64,000 nt of DNA from Pseudomonas shahriarae. Lineage in GTDB: Bacteria > Pseudomonadota > Gammaproteobacteria > Pseudomonadales > Pseudomonadaceae. The stretch spans positions 5,869,001 to 5,933,000 of the forward strand of contig NZ_CP077085.1 of assembly GCF_014268455.2 (NCBI RefSeq), given 5' to 3'. The notes below the pieces were generated by a model. It was given only the letters and a program-made list of their open reading frames with translations. It made no database searches and was not told the origin of the DNA. Position numbers and translations under genes: made by a program. Shown in pieces: positions 28,051-36,160 of this stretch (the first letter of the stretch is position 1; each line of letters starts with the position of its first letter).

Positions 28051-29410
28051 ACCCCTGAAACTGGCCGTGGTCGGCCACACCAACGTCGGCAAGACCTCGC
28101 TGCTGCGCACCCTGACCCGGGACGTGGGCTTTGGCGAAGTGTCCCACCGCCCCAGCACCACCCGGCATGTCGAAGGCGCACGCCTGTCGGTGGACGGTGA
28201 AGCCTTGCTGGAGCTGTACGACACGCCGGGCCTGGAAGATGCCATCGCCCTGCTCGATTACCTGGAGCGCCTCGACCGCCCCGGCGAACGCCTGGATGGC
28301 CCGGCCCGCCTGGCGCGCTTCCTCGAAGGCAGCGAAGCCCGCCAGCGCTTTGAGCAGGAGGCCAAGGTGCTGCGCCAGTTATTGGCGTCCGACGCCGGCC
28401 TGTACGTGATCGACGCCCGGGAACCGGTGCTGGCCAAGTACCGCGACGAGCTGCAAGTGCTGGCCAGTTGCGGCAAACCGCTGCTGCCGGTGCTCAACTT
28501 TGTCAGCAGCGCCGAACACCGCGAGCCGGACTGGCGCGAAGCCCTGGCCCGCCTGGGCCTGCATGCGTTGGTGCGCTTTGACAGCGTGGCGCCCCCAGAA
28601 GATGGCGAGCGGCGGCTGTATGAAAGCCTGGCCCTGTTGCTGGAAAGCTCACGGCCACAGTTGGAGCGGCTGATTCTCGACCAGGAGGCCCAACGCCAGG
28701 CGCGCCAGCAAAGCGCCGCACGCCTGATCGCCGAGCTGCTGATCGACTGCGCCGCGTGCCGGCGCAGCGTGGTCATCGAGGATGAACAGCAGGCCGTCAG
28801 CGATCTGCGCAAGGCCGTGCGCCAGCGCGAACAACGTTGCGTCGAGGCCCTGCTCAAACTCTACGGCTTCCGTGCGCAAGACGCCGCTGCCAGCGACTTG
28901 CCGCTGCTGGACGGACGTTGGGGCGATGATTTGTTCAACCCCGAAACCCTCAAGCAACTGGGGGTGCGGGTCGGCGGCGGGATTGCCGCGGGAGCTGCGG
29001 CCGGTGCCGGTGTGGACTTGCTGGTCGGCGGCCTGACCCTGGGCGCCGCCGCCCTGGCCGGGGCGATTGCCGGGGGCGCCCTGCAAACTGCGCGCAGCTA
29101 CGGCAGCCGTTTGCTGGGCAAGATCAAGGGCCAGCGCGAGCTGACCGTGGATGACAGCGTGTTGCGCCTGCTGGCCCTGCGCCAGCGCCAGTTGCTCAAG
29201 GCCCTGAACCTGCGGGGGCATGCCGCGATGCACAGCATCAAGGTCGACACCCCGCAGGACAAGAGCTGGCGCGAAGGCAAACTGCCTGAGGCCCTGCACA
29301 AGGCGCGTGCCCATCCGCAATGGTCATCGCTCAACCCCCATGCACGGTTGAGCCAGGCCGAGCGCCAGGAACAGATCGAAGCCCTGGCCCAGCGCCTGGA
29401 CGAGGCTTAA
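28043..29410 (+). CDS. Membrane-associated GTPase with DUF3482 domain
   Basis: This is a 455-residue P-loop GTPase. G1 is GHTNVGKTSLL (residues 11-21), the switch region includes RPSTTRHVEG, and G3 is DTPG (60-63). The usual G4 NKxD is not present: the equivalent strand reads LPVLNFVSS, so guanine recognition is atypical. The C-terminal half contains a Gly/Ala-rich hydrophobic hairpin (GGGIAAGAAAGAGVDLLVGG, then GAAALAGAIAGGALQTA) resembling glycine-zipper membrane inserts. It overlaps the DUF2868 gene and ends convergent with the HD oxygenase gene, their stop codons overlapping. The function is unknown. Confidence 0.82.
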   Translation: MTKPLKLAVVGHTNVGKTSLLRTLTRDVGFGEVSHRPSTTRHVEGARLSVDGEALLELYDTPGLEDAIALLDYLERLDRPGERLDGPARLARFLEGSEARQRFEQEAKVLRQLLASDAGLYVIDAREPVLAKYRDELQVLASCGKPLLPVLNFVSSAEHREPDWREALARLGLHALVRFDSVAPPEDGERRLYESLALLLESSRPQLERLILDQEAQRQARQQSAARLIAELLIDCAACRRSVVIEDEQQAVSDLRKAVRQREQRCVEALLKLYGFRAQDAAASDLPLLDGRWGDDLFNPETLKQLGVRVGGGIAAGAAAGAGVDLLVGGLTLGAAALAGAIAGGALQTARSYGSRLLGKIKGQRELTVDDSVLRLLALRQRQLLKALNLRGHAAMHSIKVDTPQDKSWREGKLPEALHKARAHPQWSSLNPHARLSQAERQEQIEALAQRLDEA

Positions 29411-29961
29411 GCCGCCAGCAGGTGCCGGGCCTTGGCCTTCAACACCTCAAGGTCGAGCACCGGCACGTGCATTGCCTTGGCCTGCTCATCCCAGTGGCGC
29501 ATGCGCAGGCTCACCGCACACAGCGGGTCCTGCTCAAACACACGGGCCTCGTCGGCCGTCATCACCCCGCCCTGGTAACCCAGGGTGCGGCGGCTGGCCT
29601 CGCTCAAGCGCGCATAGTAGTCCGGCTGGCTGAAGGTCAGGTAACGCTTGGCCTGCACGTGATACTCCACCAGTTTCGCCAGGCGCTCGCTGAACCCGGC
29701 ACGCCGCAAGTAATCGGCACCCAGGCGTTCGTGGCTGACCACGCCGTAGCCACCCATATTCTCCCCACCCTGGCCGCAGATGTGCCCGATATCGTGGAAG
29801 AACGCCGCCAGCACCACTTCATCGTCAAAGCCTTCAGCCATGGCCAGTTGCGCGGCCTGGGACATATGCTCGATCTGCGACACCGGCTCGCCAATGTAAT
29901 CGGCAGCGCCATGCTGCTCGTACAGGCCAAAGACTTCAGCGACCACCTGTTCAGCGTTCAT
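29407..29961 (-). CDS. PhnZ-type HD-domain mixed-valent diiron oxygenase
   Basis: This is an HD-domain protein of phosphonate operons (184 residues). Compared with PhnZ as I remember it, the whole active site is present with a constant two- to three-residue offset: Tyr22, Glu25, His32, His56-Asp57, His60, His77, His101, Lys105 and Asp158, with the motifs YIGEPVSQIEHM and FFHDIGH. PhnZ cleaves the C-P bond of 1-hydroxy-2-aminoethylphosphonate with O2. The ATG at 29961 shares a base with the stop of the upstream oxidoreductase (TGATG). No PhnY hydroxylase is present in the window, so the true substrate may differ. Confidence 0.86.
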   Translation of the reverse strand: MNAEQVVAEVFGLYEQHGAADYIGEPVSQIEHMSQAAQLAMAEGFDDEVVLAAFFHDIGHICGQGGENMGGYGVVSHERLGADYLRRAGFSERLAKLVEYHVQAKRYLTFSQPDYYARLSEASRRTLGYQGGVMTADEARVFEQDPLCAVSLRMRHWDEQAKAMHVPVLDLEVLKAKARHLLAA

Positions 29962-31094
29962 CACGCCTGCCCCCACAGTTCAGTGATATTGCGCTCGGCC
30001 AGCGCCGGCCCCACGCTCATGCCCACGCCGGTGTGCATCAACGCCACGCTGACCCCCTCGGCGGCGCGCAGGAACGAAAACGGCCCCGGCCCACGGGAGC
30101 CATAAACGCCTTGCCAGCGCTCGACGACCTGAATCTGACAGCCCAGGGTCTGCTCGGCCAGTTCGATCATCCAGTTGTCCACCTGTTCGGCGTTGAATGG
30201 CGAAGGATCACTGCCGTAATGGTGGGAATCCCCGATGATCAACTCGCCATGGGGCGTCGGGCTGATCAGCAGGTGGATGCCATGTTCATGCAGGTGCGGT
30301 GTGTCACGCAGGATCTGCGCCTGCACCGGCGCCGCTTCCGGCAAGTCGGCAAAGGCGCCGTAGTGCACGCAGCTCAGGCCGGTCAGCAGCGCGTGTTGCA
30401 GGTTCAGCTCCTCCTTGGGCCGGGCGCGCAGCATTTGCAGTTGGCAGATTTGCGGCTGGAGTGCGGCGATCTGTTCGGCCAGCAGGGTTTGGTAGTCGTG
30501 GCCGGAGCACACGATGATCTGCTTGCCACGAAAGCTGCCGGCGGTGCTGTGCACCTGGCCCGGTTCGATGTCACGTACCAGGGTGGAGAAGTGGAACTCC
30601 ACCTTGAGGTCGCAGCGCAGGTACTCGATCAGTGCCGGCAGCGCCTCACGGGAATACAGTTGCTGATCGTCCAGGCCGTGCAGCGCGGCGCGGTGATGGC
30701 GGAACTGGCCGCCATACAAGTCGTTCAGCGCTGCGCCTTGCAACAGGTTGACGCGGTAGCCATGCGCCTTGGCGCGCCCGGCGCAAAAAGCCTCCAGCAG
30801 GTGCTCTTCGGCTTCGGTGCGGGCAAACAGGTAAGAGCCATTGCGCTTGAGTTGCAGGTTCGCCTGTTGCGCCCACTGGCCCCAGATCTCGCGGCTTTGC
30901 CGGGCCAGGTCGAGCATCTGCCCCGGCGGTTGGCCGGTGACCAAGGCCTGGCCGAAGTTGCGCACCGAGGCGCCCAGGGGCGTGGCCGTGCGCTCGAACA
31001 CCGTGACCTTGAGGCCGCGTTTGGCGGCGGCGTAGGCATGGGACAGGCCGAGGATGCCGGCGCCGATGATCAGCAGATCGCTGTGGTGTGTCAT
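29961..31094 (-). CDS. FAD-dependent amine oxidoreductase of phosphonate operons (TIGR03364 type)
   Basis: This is a DAO/DadA-type flavoprotein of 377 residues. The N-terminal FAD motif is LLIIGAGILGLSHAYAAAKRG, and the C-terminal segment GVYGSRGPGPFSFLRAA precedes VALMHTGVGMSVGPALAE, the usual flavin-contacting end. Relatives in phosphonate clusters have been reported to oxidise aminoethylphosphonate or its N-methyl derivatives to phosphonoacetaldehyde; that is from memory, and the exact substrate here is unproven. It lies between the binding-protein gene and the PhnZ-type oxygenase on the same strand, and is coupled to the latter. A REPIN separates it from the binding-protein gene. Confidence 0.82.
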   Translation of the reverse strand: MTHHSDLLIIGAGILGLSHAYAAAKRGLKVTVFERTATPLGASVRNFGQALVTGQPPGQMLDLARQSREIWGQWAQQANLQLKRNGSYLFARTEAEEHLLEAFCAGRAKAHGYRVNLLQGAALNDLYGGQFRHHRAALHGLDDQQLYSREALPALIEYLRCDLKVEFHFSTLVRDIEPGQVHSTAGSFRGKQIIVCSGHDYQTLLAEQIAALQPQICQLQMLRARPKEELNLQHALLTGLSCVHYGAFADLPEAAPVQAQILRDTPHLHEHGIHLLISPTPHGELIIGDSHHYGSDPSPFNAEQVDNWMIELAEQTLGCQIQVVERWQGVYGSRGPGPFSFLRAAEGVSVALMHTGVGMSVGPALAERNITELWGQA

Positions 31095-31116
31095 TAAGTG
31101 ATGTCCTGAATTTGAG

Positions 31117-31199
31117 GCCTCATCGCCGGCAAGCCAGCTCCCACAGGGTGAATTGTGAACACCTTCAAATGTGGGAGCTGGCTTGCCGGCGACGAGGCC
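31117..31199. repeat. REPIN inside the phosphonate cluster
   Basis: Inverted arms (GGCCTCATCGCCGGCAAGCC at the left; TGTGGGAGCTGGCTTGCCGG at the right, from 31170) lie between the binding-protein and oxidoreductase genes. This copy belongs to the GCCGGCGA subtype and could reduce or modulate read-through into the two enzyme genes. Confidence 0.92.
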
Positions 31200-31216
31200 A
31201 TCAGCCCCAACGAATA

Positions 31217-32242
31217 TTATTGACCTGCCACTTTCTCCGACTTGCCGTCATAGCGCTTACGCCATTCAGCCAGGATGTTATCGCGGTTTTTCGAGGCCCA
31301 GGCAAAGTCATTCTTGATCAGGCGCTGCTCATAGTCCGCCGGCAATTCTGTCTGCGGCTTGGCAATGCCCGGCTGGGCCAGCACGGCGAAGTTTTCCTTG
31401 TACAGCTCCATCGCTGCGGGGCTTGCAGAGAAATCGGCGAGCTTCTGTGCCGCTTCCGGGTGGGCCGTGCCCTTGATCACCGCAGTGGCTTCGATGTCCC
31501 AGCCCAGGCCTTCCTTGGGCAATACGATATCCAGCGGCGCGCCCTGGCGCTTGAGCTGCACCGCTGGGTATTCGAAGGAAATGCCGATTGGGAACTCACC
31601 GGAAGCCGCCAACTTGCACGGCTTGGAACCGGAGTGCACGTACTGGCCGATGTTCTGGTGCAGGTCATCCATGTACTGCCAGCCCTGCTTCTCGCCGAAG
31701 GTCTGCAACCAGGCGCTGACGTCGAGAAAACCGGTGCCGGACGACGCCGGGTTAGGCATGACGATCTTGCCCTTGTACTCAGGCTTGGTCAGGTCTTGCC
31801 AGCTGATCGGTTTGCTCAGGCCCTGTTTCTCGGCTTCGACAGTGTTGAAGCAAATGGTCGCAGCCCACACGTCCATGCCGACCCAGGCCGGTGGGTTGGC
31901 GGCGTCGCGGTAGTTCTTGCCAATTTTGTCCAGATCTTTCGGCGCGTAGCTTTGCAGCATGCCTTGCTGATCGAGGATCGCCAGGCTGGAGGCCGCCAGG
32001 CCCCACACTGCATCGGCTTGTGGGCGGGCTTTTTCTGCCAGCAGCTTGGCGGTGATGATGCCGGTGGAGTCGCGCACCCACTTGATCTCGACGTCCGGGT
32101 TGGCCGCTTCGAAGGCTTTCTTGTAGGTCTTCAACTGCTCGGCTTCAAGGGCCGTGTACACGGTCAACTCGGTCTTGGCAGCAAAGGCATTCAGGCTGAA
32201 CGCGGTGAGCACAGCAGCGGCGAGGGCCAGGGGCTTGAACAT
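31217..32242 (-). CDS. Phosphonate ABC transporter, substrate-binding protein
   Basis: This is a periplasmic Fe(III)/thiamine-type binding protein (341 residues) of the putative 2-aminoethylphosphonate transporter class. The signal peptide MFKPLALAAAVLTAFSLNAF is cleaved before AKTELTVYTALEAEQ. The core contains DAVWGLAASSLAILDQQGML and the ligand-region segment VMPNPASSGTGFLDVSAWLQ. The ATG at 32242 is chosen since the signal peptide begins there; longer frames have no conserved sequence. It lies 26 bases after the permease gene. Confidence 0.88.
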   Translation of the reverse strand: MFKPLALAAAVLTAFSLNAFAAKTELTVYTALEAEQLKTYKKAFEAANPDVEIKWVRDSTGIITAKLLAEKARPQADAVWGLAASSLAILDQQGMLQSYAPKDLDKIGKNYRDAANPPAWVGMDVWAATICFNTVEAEKQGLSKPISWQDLTKPEYKGKIVMPNPASSGTGFLDVSAWLQTFGEKQGWQYMDDLHQNIGQYVHSGSKPCKLAASGEFPIGISFEYPAVQLKRQGAPLDIVLPKEGLGWDIEATAVIKGTAHPEAAQKLADFSASPAAMELYKENFAVLAQPGIAKPQTELPADYEQRLIKNDFAWASKNRDNILAEWRKRYDGKSEKVAGQ

Positions 32243-32268
32243 GGTGCGTTTCCTTGTGTGGGGCAGAG

Positions 32269-33993
32269 TTATTGACCGGGCGCGGTTTGGCGCCAGGCCT
32301 GGGAGCGGCGCAACAAGCCGCGTGAGGCCCACGCCAGCAGCAGCGAGACGCCGGCTGAAGTGAACAGAATCAAGGTCGACATGGCCGCCGCGCCGCCCAC
32401 GTTGCCGGCGTCGTCCATGTTCAGCACCGCCACCGCCGCAAGGATGGTGTCGGGGCTGTAGAGAAAGATCGCGGCCGATACGGTGGTCATCGCCGAGACA
32501 AACAGGTAGCGCAGGATGTCCAACAGCGCCGGCAGGCAGATCGGCACGGTGACCCGCAAAAAGTGGCGGTACAGCGGCGCCTTGAGCGACAGCGCGGCGG
32601 CTTCGAACTCGGCGTCGAGTTGGCGCAGGGCGGTGGTGGCGGTCATTTGCGCGGTGGTCAAATAGTGAGCAATGGTGCACACCACCAGCAGCGTCATGGT
32701 CCCGTAGAGCACATGCAGCGGGTTGCCGTTGAGGTTGAAAAAGAACACGTAGCCCAGGCCCAGCACCAGGCCAGGCACCGCCATCGGCACAAAGCTGAGC
32801 ATGCGCAGCGCCAGGTTCAAGCCCTTTTGCCCCTTGGTCTTTTCCATCAGGTAAGCGCCGGTGAAGATCAGCACGCTGCCAATCAGTGCGGTGCAGATCG
32901 CCATGGTCAGGCTGTTGCGATAGGCCAGCCAGCCGCCGCCAGCGGTGTCGTTGAACTGGTAGTGGTTGAGCGACAGCGACAGGTTGTACGGCCAGAACTT
33001 CACCAGCGACGAGTACACCGCCATGCCGAACACCAACAGCAGCACCGCGCAGATCAGCAGCACAATCGCCAGGTAGCAGCCATCACGCAGACGCGATGGC
33101 GCCGGCTGGAACACCTGGGCGCGGCCGCTCATGGAGTCGCCGTGGCGCCGGCGCAGCCAGGTATCCACCGCGAAACTGAGCAACGCCGGCAGCAGCAGCA
33201 CCATGCCGATCAAGGCGCCGCGACCGAACTGCTGTTGGCCAACCACGGCCTTGTAGGCCTCCAGCGCCAGCACTTGATAGTCACCACCCACCACCACCGG
33301 TACGCCGAAGTCCGTGATGGTCAGGGTGAACACCAGGCAGAACGCGGCGAACACGGCCTGGCGCGTCGCCGGCCAGGTGATGCTGCGAAACGCCCGGGCC
33401 GGGCTGGCGCCCATGCTCGAGGCGGCATCGAACAACCGCGCATCCGCCAGGGACAGCGCCGACAGCAGGATCATCAGCGCATGGGGAAAGGTGTAGATCA
33501 CTTCACCGAGGACAATCCCCCAGAAGCCGTAGATGTTGTCGGACAGCAGGCCGCGCAACATGCCCTGGTTGCCGAACAGGTACACCAGGGCGATGCCCGG
33601 CAGCATCGACGGCGCCATCAGCGGCAGCAACGACAGGCCGCGCCAGAGGGTCTTGCCGGGGATCAGCGTGCGTTGCAAGGCGTAGGCAAACAGGTAGGCC
33701 AGGGGTACGACAATGATCGCGACGCTCAGGGAAACCTTCAGGCTGTTGCCCAGCAGCCAGTGGAAGTTGGCGCTGGTCAGCAGCTCACGCGCCGCCACCA
33801 GGCCGCCGCCCTGGCCGTCTTCGGCGCTGAAACCGCGCCAGAAGATCGCCAGCAACGGCAGCAGTACGGCGAGGCCCAACAGGCACAGCAGCAGTAGCTT
33901 GCCGCCCAGTACGAAGATACGGTCGCCGATTTGCGCACGGGAAGCCTGACGCGCCACACGGCCGGGTACTGGCAGGGTCATATCAGTGGCCAT
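32269..33993 (-). CDS. Phosphonate ABC transporter, fused double permease
   Basis: This inner-membrane permease of 574 residues carries two binding-protein-dependent transport domains in one chain, each with about six helices. The first has the EAA-like loop DAASSMGASPARAFRSITWP and the second AAALSLKAPLYRHFLRVTVP. Such fused permeases are typical of the Fe3+/2-aminoethylphosphonate group. The ATG at 33993 (MATDMTLPVPG) is one base after the stop of the ATPase gene. It works with the neighbouring ATPase and binding protein. Confidence 0.9.
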   Translation of the reverse strand: MATDMTLPVPGRVARQASRAQIGDRIFVLGGKLLLLCLLGLAVLLPLLAIFWRGFSAEDGQGGGLVAARELLTSANFHWLLGNSLKVSLSVAIIVVPLAYLFAYALQRTLIPGKTLWRGLSLLPLMAPSMLPGIALVYLFGNQGMLRGLLSDNIYGFWGIVLGEVIYTFPHALMILLSALSLADARLFDAASSMGASPARAFRSITWPATRQAVFAAFCLVFTLTITDFGVPVVVGGDYQVLALEAYKAVVGQQQFGRGALIGMVLLLPALLSFAVDTWLRRRHGDSMSGRAQVFQPAPSRLRDGCYLAIVLLICAVLLLVFGMAVYSSLVKFWPYNLSLSLNHYQFNDTAGGGWLAYRNSLTMAICTALIGSVLIFTGAYLMEKTKGQKGLNLALRMLSFVPMAVPGLVLGLGYVFFFNLNGNPLHVLYGTMTLLVVCTIAHYLTTAQMTATTALRQLDAEFEAAALSLKAPLYRHFLRVTVPICLPALLDILRYLFVSAMTTVSAAIFLYSPDTILAAVAVLNMDDAGNVGGAAAMSTLILFTSAGVSLLLAWASRGLLRRSQAWRQTAPGQ

Positions 33994-33994
33994 C

Positions 33995-35059
33995 TCAGGC
34001 AAACACCTGCAGGCTGCGCGGCGGCAGCGCCACCCAGATATCCTGGGCGCCCAGGCGTGGCATGGCTTCCGGCGCCAGTTCGGCCAGCAGCGGATGGCCG
34101 GGCAACTGGTCCAGTTCAAAGCTCATGCGGCAACGGTTGCCGAGGAAGGTGATCTCGCGGACCTTGGCCGGGAACAGGTTTTCTTCGTGTACGGGCGGGT
34201 TGACGCTGATCGCTTCCGGCCTGCAGAACAGGCGGCCCGACGCGGCCTTGCCGCTGTCTTCGGCCAGGCGCACATTCATCCCGCCAACCTGGGCGTGGCT
34301 GGCGCTGTTGCGGCTGAAGGGCAGCCAGTTGCCCTGGCCGACAAACTCGGCCACGAACGGGGTGGCCGGGCGGTCGTAGATCTCTTGAGGGGTGGCGTAC
34401 TGCTCGACCTTGCCGTTGTTCATCACGGCGATACGGTCGGCCATCAGCATGGCCTCGTCTTGGTTGTGGGTGACCATCAGGGTGGTGATGCCCAGGCGGC
34501 GTTGCAGCTGGCGCAACTCGGTGCACAGGTGCTCGCGCACCCGGGCATCGAGGGCCGACATCGGCTCATCCAGCAGCAACAGCGACGGGGCCGGCGCCAG
34601 GGCACGGGCCAGGGCGACCCGTTGCTGCTGGCCGCCGGACAGTTGGCCGGGGTATTTCTTTTCGCTGCCGGTCAGGCCCACCAGTTCCAGCATCTGCGCC
34701 ACGCGTTTGCGCACTTCATCGCGCCCGCTGCCGGCCAAGCCGTAGCCGATATTGGCCTCGACGCTGAGGTTGGGGAACAGCGCGTAGGACTGGAACAGAA
34801 TGCCGTAGTCCCGCGCCTGGGGTGCCAGTAGGGAAACGTCACGATCACCCAGGTACAACTCGCCGCTGTCCTGGCGCTCCAGGCCGGCGATGCAGCGCAG
34901 CAAGGTGGTCTTGCCGCAGCCCGAGGGGCCGAGCAGGCACACCAGTTCACCGGCGGCGACGTCCAGGGACACATGGTCCAGGGCAGTAAAGGCGCCAAAG
35001 CGCTTCTGGATACCACGCACCGTCATCGGCGCGCCGGGGTTGAGCTGGGCTGTGTTCAT
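33995..35059 (-). CDS. Phosphonate ABC transporter, ATP-binding protein
   Basis: This is a 354-residue ABC ATPase of the PotA/FbpC type. Walker A is GPSGCGKTTLL, the signature LSGGQQQRVALARA, Walker B LLLLDEPMSALD and the switch His in VTHNQDEAML. A C-terminal TOBE domain follows (about residues 270-354). It is the first transporter gene downstream of the LysR gene, and the whole set is read from the minus strand. The substrate class is inferred from the two phosphonate-operon enzymes downstream. Confidence 0.9.
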   Translation of the reverse strand: MNTAQLNPGAPMTVRGIQKRFGAFTALDHVSLDVAAGELVCLLGPSGCGKTTLLRCIAGLERQDSGELYLGDRDVSLLAPQARDYGILFQSYALFPNLSVEANIGYGLAGSGRDEVRKRVAQMLELVGLTGSEKKYPGQLSGGQQQRVALARALAPAPSLLLLDEPMSALDARVREHLCTELRQLQRRLGITTLMVTHNQDEAMLMADRIAVMNNGKVEQYATPQEIYDRPATPFVAEFVGQGNWLPFSRNSASHAQVGGMNVRLAEDSGKAASGRLFCRPEAISVNPPVHEENLFPAKVREITFLGNRCRMSFELDQLPGHPLLAELAPEAMPRLGAQDIWVALPPRSLQVFA

Positions 35060-35197
35060 GGTGGCACCTCATCAAACTGATGAAGGCCATGCTAGGCAGC
35101 AAATGCGTCCCTGGTGTGGCAGGAAGGCAAAAGCGGGTGATAGTGGTATTGGTGGATTTGGGTAGGGGCAGAGCCATGGGGTGTTGGGTCTACCGCT

Positions 35198-35269
35198 ATC
35201 GCAGGCAAGCCGGCTCCCACATTTGGAGCTGTGAATACCTTCACATGTGGGAGCTGGCTTGCCTGCGAT
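35198..35269. repeat. REPIN between the LysR and ATPase genes
   Basis: Arms at 35198 onward (ATCGCAGGCAAGCCGGCTCC) and 35246-35269 (TGTGGGAGCTGGCTTGCCTG) form an imperfect inverted pair. It lies upstream of the transporter genes, in the spacer that should contain the phosphonate operon promoter. Confidence 0.9.
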
Positions 35270-35296
35270 GGCGATTTCAAAACCACCCAAAATCTT

Positions 35297-36160
35297 TCAG
35301 AGCGGCGACATTTCCTGCGCCAACCCCAGAAACGCCGCCGGCAACCGCGCACCTTTACGCTCCTTGAGGCAGTACAGGTATTCAGGAATCTGCGGCGCAT
35401 TCTCGATGGTCAGCACCCGCAGTTGCGGGTCATGGGGCACTTCCTGGCGGGCGATGATGCTGATGCCGATATTGCGCAGCACCGCCTCGCGGATCGACTC
35501 ACGGCTACCGATTTCCAGCAGCGGCCCATAACCCACGCCAGCGCCTTTGAGCATCTCTTCGGTCAAGCGCCGGGTGGTCGAGCCTGCCTCGCGCATCAAC
35601 AGGGTATGCCCCGCCAGCGCACTGAGCGGCACATGCTCCAGCACGGCCAGCGGATGATTGCGATGCACCGCCAGCACCAGCGGGTCGGTGCCCAACACCC
35701 GGCGGATCAGGCGCGGGTCTTCCAGCAATTGCGAGGAGGCGGCGACGTCCACCCGGTAATCATCCAGCGCTTCGAGGACCTGCTGGGAGTTGCCGATTTC
35801 CACTGCCACTTCCACGTGGGGCAAGCGTTCGCGGAAGGTTTTCACCAGATCAAGGATGTAATAGGGCGCGGTCGCGGCGATGCGCAACGTGCCCTGGACC
35901 TGGCCGCTGTTGCGCAGGAAAAACTCGATATCCGCCTCCTGCTGCAACAGCGCCTTGACCATCGGCAACAGCCGCGCCCCTTCGTCGCTGACGGTGAGGC
36001 GGCGGCCACCGCGATAGAACAGCTCAACCGAGTACTGGCTTTCCAGATGGCGGATCTGGGTGGTCACCGTGGGTTGGCTCAGGCCGAGTTTTTTCGCCGC
36101 CTGGGTAATGCTGCCCAGGCGGGCGACCATGTAAAACGCCTTCAACTCGGCACTCAGCAC
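35297..36160 (-). CDS. LysR-family regulator, phosphonate-catabolism type
   Basis: This LysR protein has 287 residues. The helix-turn-helix is SITQAAKKLGLSQPTVTTQI, followed by the linker helix and a substrate-binding domain (GTLRIAATAPYYILDLVKTF). It resembles the LysR regulators associated with aminoethylphosphonate operons. It is on the same strand as the phosphonate cluster, 237 bases upstream, and starts only 16 bases after the end of cadA. It may therefore receive read-through from the metal-induced cadA promoter, since no terminator is visible between them. Confidence 0.82.
   Translation of the reverse strand: MLSAELKAFYMVARLGSITQAAKKLGLSQPTVTTQIRHLESQYSVELFYRGGRRLTVSDEGARLLPMVKALLQQEADIEFFLRNSGQVQGTLRIAATAPYYILDLVKTFRERLPHVEVAVEIGNSQQVLEALDDYRVDVAASSQLLEDPRLIRRVLGTDPLVLAVHRNHPLAVLEHVPLSALAGHTLLMREAGSTTRRLTEEMLKGAGVGYGPLLEIGSRESIREAVLRNIGISIIARQEVPHDPQLRVLTIENAPQIPEYLYCLKERKGARLPAAFLGLAQEMSPL

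Follow-up and report, generated by a model that had tools for sequence, protein, structure and literature searches.

The operon and its gene families

The operon considered here occupies 29407-36160 on the minus strand of a 64,000-nucleotide stretch of Pseudomonas shahriarae DNA (the window), which corresponds to positions 5869001-5933000 of a single-contig genome of 6.05 Mb. Its six genes encode a LysR-type regulator, the ATPase, permease and periplasmic binding protein of an ATP-binding cassette (ABC) importer, a flavin adenine dinucleotide (FAD) amine oxidase and a PhnZ-like HD oxygenase; the last two are called the FAD enzyme and the HD enzyme below. There is a good probability that this is an accessory operon for scavenging aminophosphonates, in which the two enzymes serve as parallel branches and not as successive steps of one pathway.

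Families were assigned with NCBIfam models and their curated cut-offs, and all six genes score above theirs. The regulator (35297..36160, on the minus strand like every feature described here) falls in the phn_lysR/AepR family (TIGR03339; 420 bits against a cut-off of 341). The importer is of the AepXVW type and consists of the ATPase (33995..35059; TIGR03265, PhnT2; 514 against 458 bits), the permease (32269..34002, start codon uncertain; TIGR03262, PhnU2; 757 against 593 bits) and the AepX-type binding protein (31217..32245, exact start codon uncertain; TIGR03261, phnS2; 535 against 393 bits). The FAD enzyme (29961..31094) belongs to TIGR03364/HpnW with 462 bits against 285, and the HD enzyme (29407..29961, with an ATG start) to TIGR03276 with 226.4 bits against 214.6. 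A promoter/operator block at 35074..35145, recognised by the conservation of its motif, lies upstream of the importer genes. The first-pass annotation of the window had described a PhnZ-type diiron oxygenase without PhnY*, accompanied by a flavin amine oxidase, a dedicated regulator and an importer, and this is supported.

The genes are tightly packed. The permease and ATPase genes overlap by 8 bases, given the permease start chosen, and the stop codon of the FAD gene overlaps the start of the HD gene in the sequence TGATG. Because of this overlap, the HD gene likely starts at the ATG at 29961 and not at the GTG at 29976; the resulting protein has 184 residues, a length more frequent than any other among the 120 listed homologues. 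Pseudomonas gessardii DSM 17152 has an operon with the same gene order, and its proteins are 94-99% identical to those of the window, so that the host is closely related to it and falls in the P. fluorescens group.

The importer models (phnS2, PhnU2 and PhnT2) and phn_lysR are four of four above cut-off, and such a gene set is common in Pseudomonas for drawing phosphorus from unusual natural phosphonates. We take the importer to correspond to AepXVW on the grounds that a pseudomonad carries genes of this type together, and not by a sequence comparison. The AepXVW operon of P. putida BIRD-1 likewise combines a 2-aminoethylphosphonate (2AEP or AEP) importer, with demonstrated uptake of 2AEP, with its own LysR regulator in a phnWX-bearing pseudomonad (PMC8316502, PMC9311074), a likeness in the kind of gene set and not in compared sequence or neighbouring gene content.

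Likeness of the HD enzyme to PhnZ

The HD enzyme shares 50% identity with PhnZ, an (R)-2-amino-1-hydroxyethylphosphonate dioxygenase (PDB 4MLM/4MLN/4N6W/4N71), over 162 aligned residues, with identity at 12 of the 12 site positions checked, and 38% identity with TmpB over 164 aligned residues. The residues named by the first-pass annotation (Tyr22, Glu25, His32, His56, Asp57, His60, His77, His101, Lys105 and Asp158) were correctly placed; they match, in the same order, Y24, E27, H34, H58, D59, H62, H80, H104, K108 and D161 of PhnZ. The diiron ligands, in the pattern H...HD...H...H...D, are identical to those of PhnZ and invariant in 66 aligned HD proteins. PhnZ-type oxygenases are marked by a mixed-valent Fe(II)/Fe(III) cofactor, which the HD enzyme would be expected to share. 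We take K108 to be a site residue of PhnZ, and likewise assume the roles of the PhnZ residues beyond Y24, E27 and the metal motif; the corresponding lysine, K105, is present in the HD enzyme. So is the substrate-gating YxxE loop (Y22 and E25), the role of which in PhnZ-type oxygenases has been described (PMC8177086). An AlphaFold model of the protein (mean pLDDT 92.6) superposes on substrate-bound PhnZ with a template modelling (TM) score of 0.92 and on TmpB with 0.86.

In a tree of 66 HD proteins, which contains one very long branch, the window protein falls in a clade of 23 (support 99/91). PhnZ lies on the side of this clade and apart from the 41 other proteins, with moderate support for the split (87/67), while TmpB groups with 15 others that all adjoin a TauD-type dioxygenase. 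Two members of the wider family differ from this picture: one genus member (G416) has an HD protein without the YxxE residues in the alignment, and in Pseudomonas sp. FEN (L220:9089-9603) the HD gene is in two pieces or frames, either through a frame break or an assembly error. Both may be decaying copies or sequence errors.

PhnZ converts (R)-1-hydroxy-AEP (HAEP) to glycine and phosphate (PMC10574752, PMC8177086), and judging by its sequence the HD enzyme probably does the same. However, all subfamilies have the metal motif and almost every site residue in common, so that these features show the kind of oxygenase and do not fix the substrate. PhnZ homologues vary in this respect, as TmpB acts on trimethyl-HAEP and GmPhnZ on both hydroxymethylphosphonate and HAEP (PMC10574752). 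The true substrate could therefore be another alpha-hydroxyphosphonate, such as N-methyl-HAEP or hydroxymethylphosphonate, with the FAD enzyme acting as proposed below. This is unlikely, as the protein is far under the cut-offs of the TmpB model (NF049941; 130 against 300 bits) and the hydroxymethylphosphonate dioxygenase model (NF052439; 112 against 300 bits), and lies on PhnZ's side of the tree. TmpB resembles the HD enzyme in oxygenase fold and diiron motif, but its relatives form their own clade beside TauD-type dioxygenases, whereas the window genome has no match to such a dioxygenase.

The missing hydroxylase

PhnY*, which we take to be a PF05721 protein, would supply the 1-hydroxy substrate in the manner of the known system. 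No PF05721 match was found genome-wide, nor was a TmpA-like TauD dioxygenase found in the window's own genome; the sole control for the latter search is that, in tblastn, the same query and a related protein picked up TauD neighbours in 14 loci beyond the two from which they came. The claim of the first-pass annotation that PhnY is absent thus holds for the whole genome as searched, a result for the window's own genome only. The HD enzyme differs from PhnZ in this, having no PhnY* partner found in the genome and standing instead behind an AepXVW-type importer and an FAD oxidase.

The lack of PhnY* and the coupling of the two genes had led to the proposal that the FAD enzyme stands in for the hydroxylase, forming the 1-hydroxy substrate from AEP. 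This is barely credible: it would require C-H hydroxylation by an amine-oxidase fold, HD genes occur without FAD genes, and the assayed members of the family deaminate to phosphonoacetaldehyde (PAA) (PMC10590968).

Genes for other phosphonate routes are present elsewhere in the genome, outside the stretch that the first-pass annotation covered. An adjacent phnW and phnX pair is found at C1:3789623-3791573 with two phn_lysR-type regulators. A second phnX at about 1.33 Mb of C1 (L012:6569-11000) is accompanied by a phn_lysR-like regulator, which is below the family cut-off, a GlpT/PgtP-like major facilitator superfamily (MFS) carrier and Phn_Fe-ADH (TIGR03405). A carbon-phosphorus (C-P) lyase is also encoded elsewhere, as phnJ was found.

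The FAD enzyme and its link with PhnX

PbfD1 of Acinetobacter baumannii, annotated as TIGR03364, converts N-methyl-AEP (M1AEP) to methylamine and PAA, and phosphate appears only with PhnX; it also takes AEP and M2AEP (PMC10590968). By analogy, the FAD enzyme probably converts M1AEP and/or AEP to PAA. It is like PbfD/HpnW in scoring above the TIGR03364 cut-off and in its genomic tie to phnX, and unlike in that the window operon lacks phnX, which sits elsewhere in the genome. A homology search from the Proteus enzyme returned no Acinetobacter or Mariniblastus name among the 120 matches listed, many of which are nameless.

To examine the tie to PhnX, a single set of 99 genus genomes was searched for HD, FAD and PhnX, and so were 398 genomes of the phylum, with match cut-offs of E 1e-20 for HD and 1e-40 for FAD and PhnX. 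The genus FAD count is a lower bound (up to 17 candidates scored), as are the phylum counts (up to four FAD, eight HD and six PhnX first-look candidates scored per genome). Within the genus, HD was found in 62 of the 99 genomes, FAD in at least 57 and PhnX in 66. PhnX is present in all 57 genomes with FAD as against 9 of 42 without it (Fisher p = 2e-18, uncorrected for shared ancestry), and in 59 of the 62 HD genomes. In 5 of the 57 genomes FAD and PhnX are no more than 10 kb apart, and in the window FAD is not clustered with phnX.

The phylum sample has at least 28 genomes with FAD, 38 with HD and 39 with PhnX. PhnX occurs in 21 of the 28 FAD genomes as against 18 of 370 without FAD, and outside the genus in 14 of 21 as against 18 of 366 others; in 10 of the 21 genomes with both genes the two lie no more than 6 kb apart. 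PhnX is also found in 19 of 38 HD genomes as against 20 of 360 without HD. Among the genomes without FAD, a link between HD and PhnX is unclear (PhnX in 3 of 20 with HD and in 15 of 350 without it, p = 0.07).

A different order of reactions would have HD act first, yielding sarcosine from N-methylated 1-hydroxy-AEP (or glycine from HAEP), with the FAD enzyme then oxidising the amino acid. It finds some encouragement in the relatives of the FAD enzyme. The nearest solved ones are monomeric sarcosine oxidases, and its next NCBIfam match is the glycine oxidase ThiO. Yet the scores are low, with 36 bits over residues 1-206 for the former and 70 bits against a cut-off of 251 for the latter. PbfD1 did not take sarcosine, no Pbf enzyme that was assayed oxidised this or other non-phosphonate analogues (PMC10590968), and the link between FAD and PhnX would be left unexplained. 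This order is highly improbable.

Coupling of the two genes

FAD and HD are found together in 55 genomes of the genus and are adjacent in 54 of them. The exception is G437, where an HD gene of a different clade lies 2.6 Mb from FAD. Of the 62 genus HD genomes, 58 are above the family cut-off, and at least two (G437 and G438) carry an HD of another clade. The coupling reported by the first-pass annotation is real and, given this adjacency, not due to chance.

A serial pathway could be read from it: the FAD enzyme would deaminate (R)-HAEP or its N-methyl form to 1-hydroxy-phosphonoacetaldehyde, from which the HD enzyme, whose substrate must bear a C1 hydroxyl, would release glyoxylate and phosphate. 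Besides translational coupling and adjacency, this agrees with the description of TIGR03364, which guessed HAEP as the substrate (as quoted in PMC10590968), and with a reported acceptance by PhnZ of certain other (R)-alpha-hydroxyphosphonates (PMC10574752). M1HAEP was synthesised in the PbfD study, the text of which, as consulted, does not state how PbfD behaves with HAEP or M1HAEP (PMC10590968). Nevertheless, PAA, the product of PbfD, has no C1 hydroxyl (PMC10590968), FAD tracks PhnX, and each gene persists in the absence of the other; the serial pathway is quite unlikely. Its self-contained form, in which FAD and HD together act on N-methyl-1-hydroxy-AEP or HAEP via 1-hydroxy-phosphonoacetaldehyde and bypass PhnX while lone HD copies act directly on HAEP, is very unlikely.

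Gain and loss of FAD, HD and phnX

The operons of relatives show that FAD and HD come and go separately. In four genomes (G054, G387, G410 and G424) the order is LysR-ATPase-permease-phnX-binding protein-FAD-HD, with phnX inside the operon. Operons of G437 and G439 carry phnX and FAD without HD, and that of G404 has FAD without phnX or HD. Conversely, HD follows directly after the importer without FAD in G399, G422, G453 and G483. G433 and G464 each have an HD gene with intact site residues, but the stretch read holds no importer, LysR or FAD gene, and no PhnX was found in either genome. The HD gene of G464 has the same GTPase neighbour as the window HD gene, while that of G433 is behind a metal-ATPase gene like the one preceding the window LysR, with the GTPase gene about 5.7 kb off.

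Among 82 FAD loci (80 named loci and two plasmid-collection records), HD is present in 55 and phnX in 15; 48 of the 82 loci have the exact gene order of the window, with LysR as the first gene. The phnX loci include Ralstonia, Cupriavidus and Proteus, all three without HD. In Ralstonia, Cupriavidus and several pseudomonads phnX is inside the operon, and in Proteus it is just downstream on the opposite strand. The 80 named loci were fetched with the FAD query and the phylum loci with the HD query, so that operons lacking both genes cannot appear in these counts. Loose picks of open reading frames (ORFs), which include antisense frames at some loci, were used only to choose proteins for scanning and to read neighbours.

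On a permease tree of 103 operons the minimum number of changes is 2 for FAD, 7 for HD and 5 for phnX. FAD and HD never changed the same way in 200 random independent pairings, and the changes are too few for sign tests on this tree to reach significance. The operons of Ralstonia, Cupriavidus and Proteus, with phnX and without HD, are at the far end of the midpoint-rooted tree. If this rooting holds, their position suggests a later arrival of HD and an exit of phnX from the operon in the lineage of the window.

These patterns do not support the single two-enzyme route of C-P cleavage in the first-pass annotation. HD has outlasted the loss of FAD in four operons, FAD persists without HD, FAD tracks PhnX throughout the genus sample, and phnX itself is within the operon in some relatives.

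HD genes in other settings

Outside the window's own genome, 38 HD loci of the phylum were surveyed. HD shares the locus with a TauD dioxygenase in 14 of them, with FAD in 8 and with PhnJ in 2, and 6 have PhnW but neither FAD nor TauD. The remaining 8 have none of these genes, and three of them show a weak PhnX-like match next to HD. The plasmid collection holds 28 HD records, of which 8 were examined. HD, FAD and phnX are together on Comamonas and Asticcacaulis records, and HD is beside a TauD dioxygenase on records of Aliiroseovarius and Labrenzia. In Variovorax (L173:5992-6540) and Nostoc (L174:5992-6552) plasmids it is inside C-P lyase operons without an annotated hydroxylase beside it. 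An unannotated Caballeronia record has FAD and PhnW near HD by tblastn, and in a Hymenobacter plasmid (L167:11986-22768) HD is flanked by an MFS carrier gene and SusC/SusD genes, FAD lying at a distance of about 9 kb. An HD gene with neither hydroxylase nor FAD found alongside thus recurs across these loci.

Some of these loci have further features. The Nostoc C-P lyase operon also carries a predicted fosfomycin thiol transferase gene. The HD protein of the Hymenobacter plasmid, from the phylum Bacteroidota, is 61% identical to that of the window and may reflect transfer between phyla. Four loci (L084, L085 and L086 of G062, G058 and G146, and L125 of G437) have an HD that belongs to a separate clade, and its neighbour is a PhnX-like HAD protein of only 26-29% identity.

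Published gene clusters offer a comparison. Among 75 phnWAY clusters, phnZ is found in 24 and pbfA in 17, and never both (PMC8154272, Table 1). Computed from this table, the absence of joint clusters compares with 5.4 expected (p = 0.0005), as expected if both enzymes dispose of (R)-HAEP.

Regulation

The conserved block at 35074-35145 spans about 70 bases, and its core motif is present with at most four mismatches in 88 of 89 upstream regions of operon relatives, the very regions from which the motif was derived. In the window the motif has a single match at two or fewer mismatches, which is exact and lies at 35116-35133; shuffles give 0.35. An operator shared with phnW was considered and rejected, as the conserved operon motif has at least five mismatches upstream of the genome's own phnW and of the second phnX regulator. 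In the gap between LysR and the ATPase gene and across the window, the best match to a Pho box is no better than chance (50 of 100 shuffles were equally good), and of the 25 other loci listed a few score above it. Between the LysR and importer genes, at 35194-35273, there is an inverted repeat of two 35-base arms that are 89% complementary and spaced by 10 bases; it presumably resembles a Pseudomonas REP-type palindrome.

Activity of the aepXVW promoter of P. putida BIRD-1, and likewise of its phnWX promoter, depends on 2AEP and PhoBR (PMC9311074). This joint response is consistent with PhnX being supplied in trans, and the window operon may share its induction with phnWX. The first-pass annotation had held that a phnY or phnWX set elsewhere, coregulated with this cluster, would speak against its route. 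The findings go part of the way against it: phnY was not found, but phnW and phnX are both present elsewhere, and the joint response is that known from BIRD-1.

A proposed scheme of two parallel branches

The link between FAD and PhnX, the known chemistry of PbfD1 and PhnZ, the mutual exclusion of phnZ and pbfA, and the separate gain and loss of the genes favour two parallel branches. The AepXVW-type importer would bring in aminophosphonates, M1AEP and HAEP presumably among them. In one branch, the PbfD-type FAD enzyme would oxidatively deaminate M1AEP and/or AEP to PAA, and PhnX encoded elsewhere, with phnW or as the second phnX, would hydrolyse this to acetaldehyde and phosphate. In the other, the HD enzyme would cleave the C-P bond of imported (R)-HAEP with O2 to give glycine and phosphate. 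As this compound would enter ready hydroxylated, no PhnY* would be needed. The coupling of the two genes would then reflect the co-supply of related imported amines and not channelling. The N-methylated and the 1-hydroxylated phosphonates put forward by the first-pass annotation both stand as the most likely substrates, but as two separate ones and not as one compound. Its idea of a flavoprotein in place of the hydroxylase is not supported.

Several points weigh against parallel branches. The tight coupling of FAD and HD could mean one pathway, and the co-occurrence of FAD and PhnX is partly shared ancestry. Seven of the 28 FAD genomes of the phylum have no PhnX by the search used. Among these seven, PhnW was found in two, G194 with the phosphonoacetate hydrolase PhnA also nearby and G249 with a 2AEP importer; G197 has an Aep importer, and in G090 and G393 FAD is near the C-P lyase genes phnF and phnM; for G095 and G154, the latter below the FAD cut-off, nothing relevant was found among the ORFs scanned (20 over the seven loci). 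The likeness of the FAD enzyme to PbfD1 is one of shared TIGR03364 membership and not of direct sequence comparison, and the activities proposed here are predicted from sequence. In phnWX clusters the non-overlap of phnZ and pbfA is not significant (p = 0.11; PMC8154272). Finally, AepX of Stappia is very specific for 2AEP, and its four tested ligands include neither M1AEP nor HAEP (PMC8316502).

A close published parallel is the Achromobacter hpnW-phnSXUT cluster with phnHD, which likewise brings together LysR, the importer and TIGR03364 and TIGR03276 enzymes, with phnW elsewhere. Unlike the window operon it has phnX inside, and its PhnHD is about 30% identical to PhnZ as against 50% in the aligned part for the HD enzyme of the window (PMC11203657). 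The roles of HpnW and PhnHD were declared an open question for Achromobacter in 2024 (PMC11203657). Searches of part of the open-access literature found neither an assay of the two Pseudomonas enzymes nor a gain-and-loss comparison of the two readings. The pairing is already in print, and the evolutionary evidence given here points towards an answer.

Implications

The pattern of gain and loss argues for separate branches and hence gives a clean prediction for a phnX-null strain. The presence of the HD gene in close to two thirds of the sampled Pseudomonas genomes hints that many of them keep an oxygenase for compounds like 1-hydroxy-AEP. Such compounds may not be self-made, and so they are perhaps more available in soil than has been recorded.

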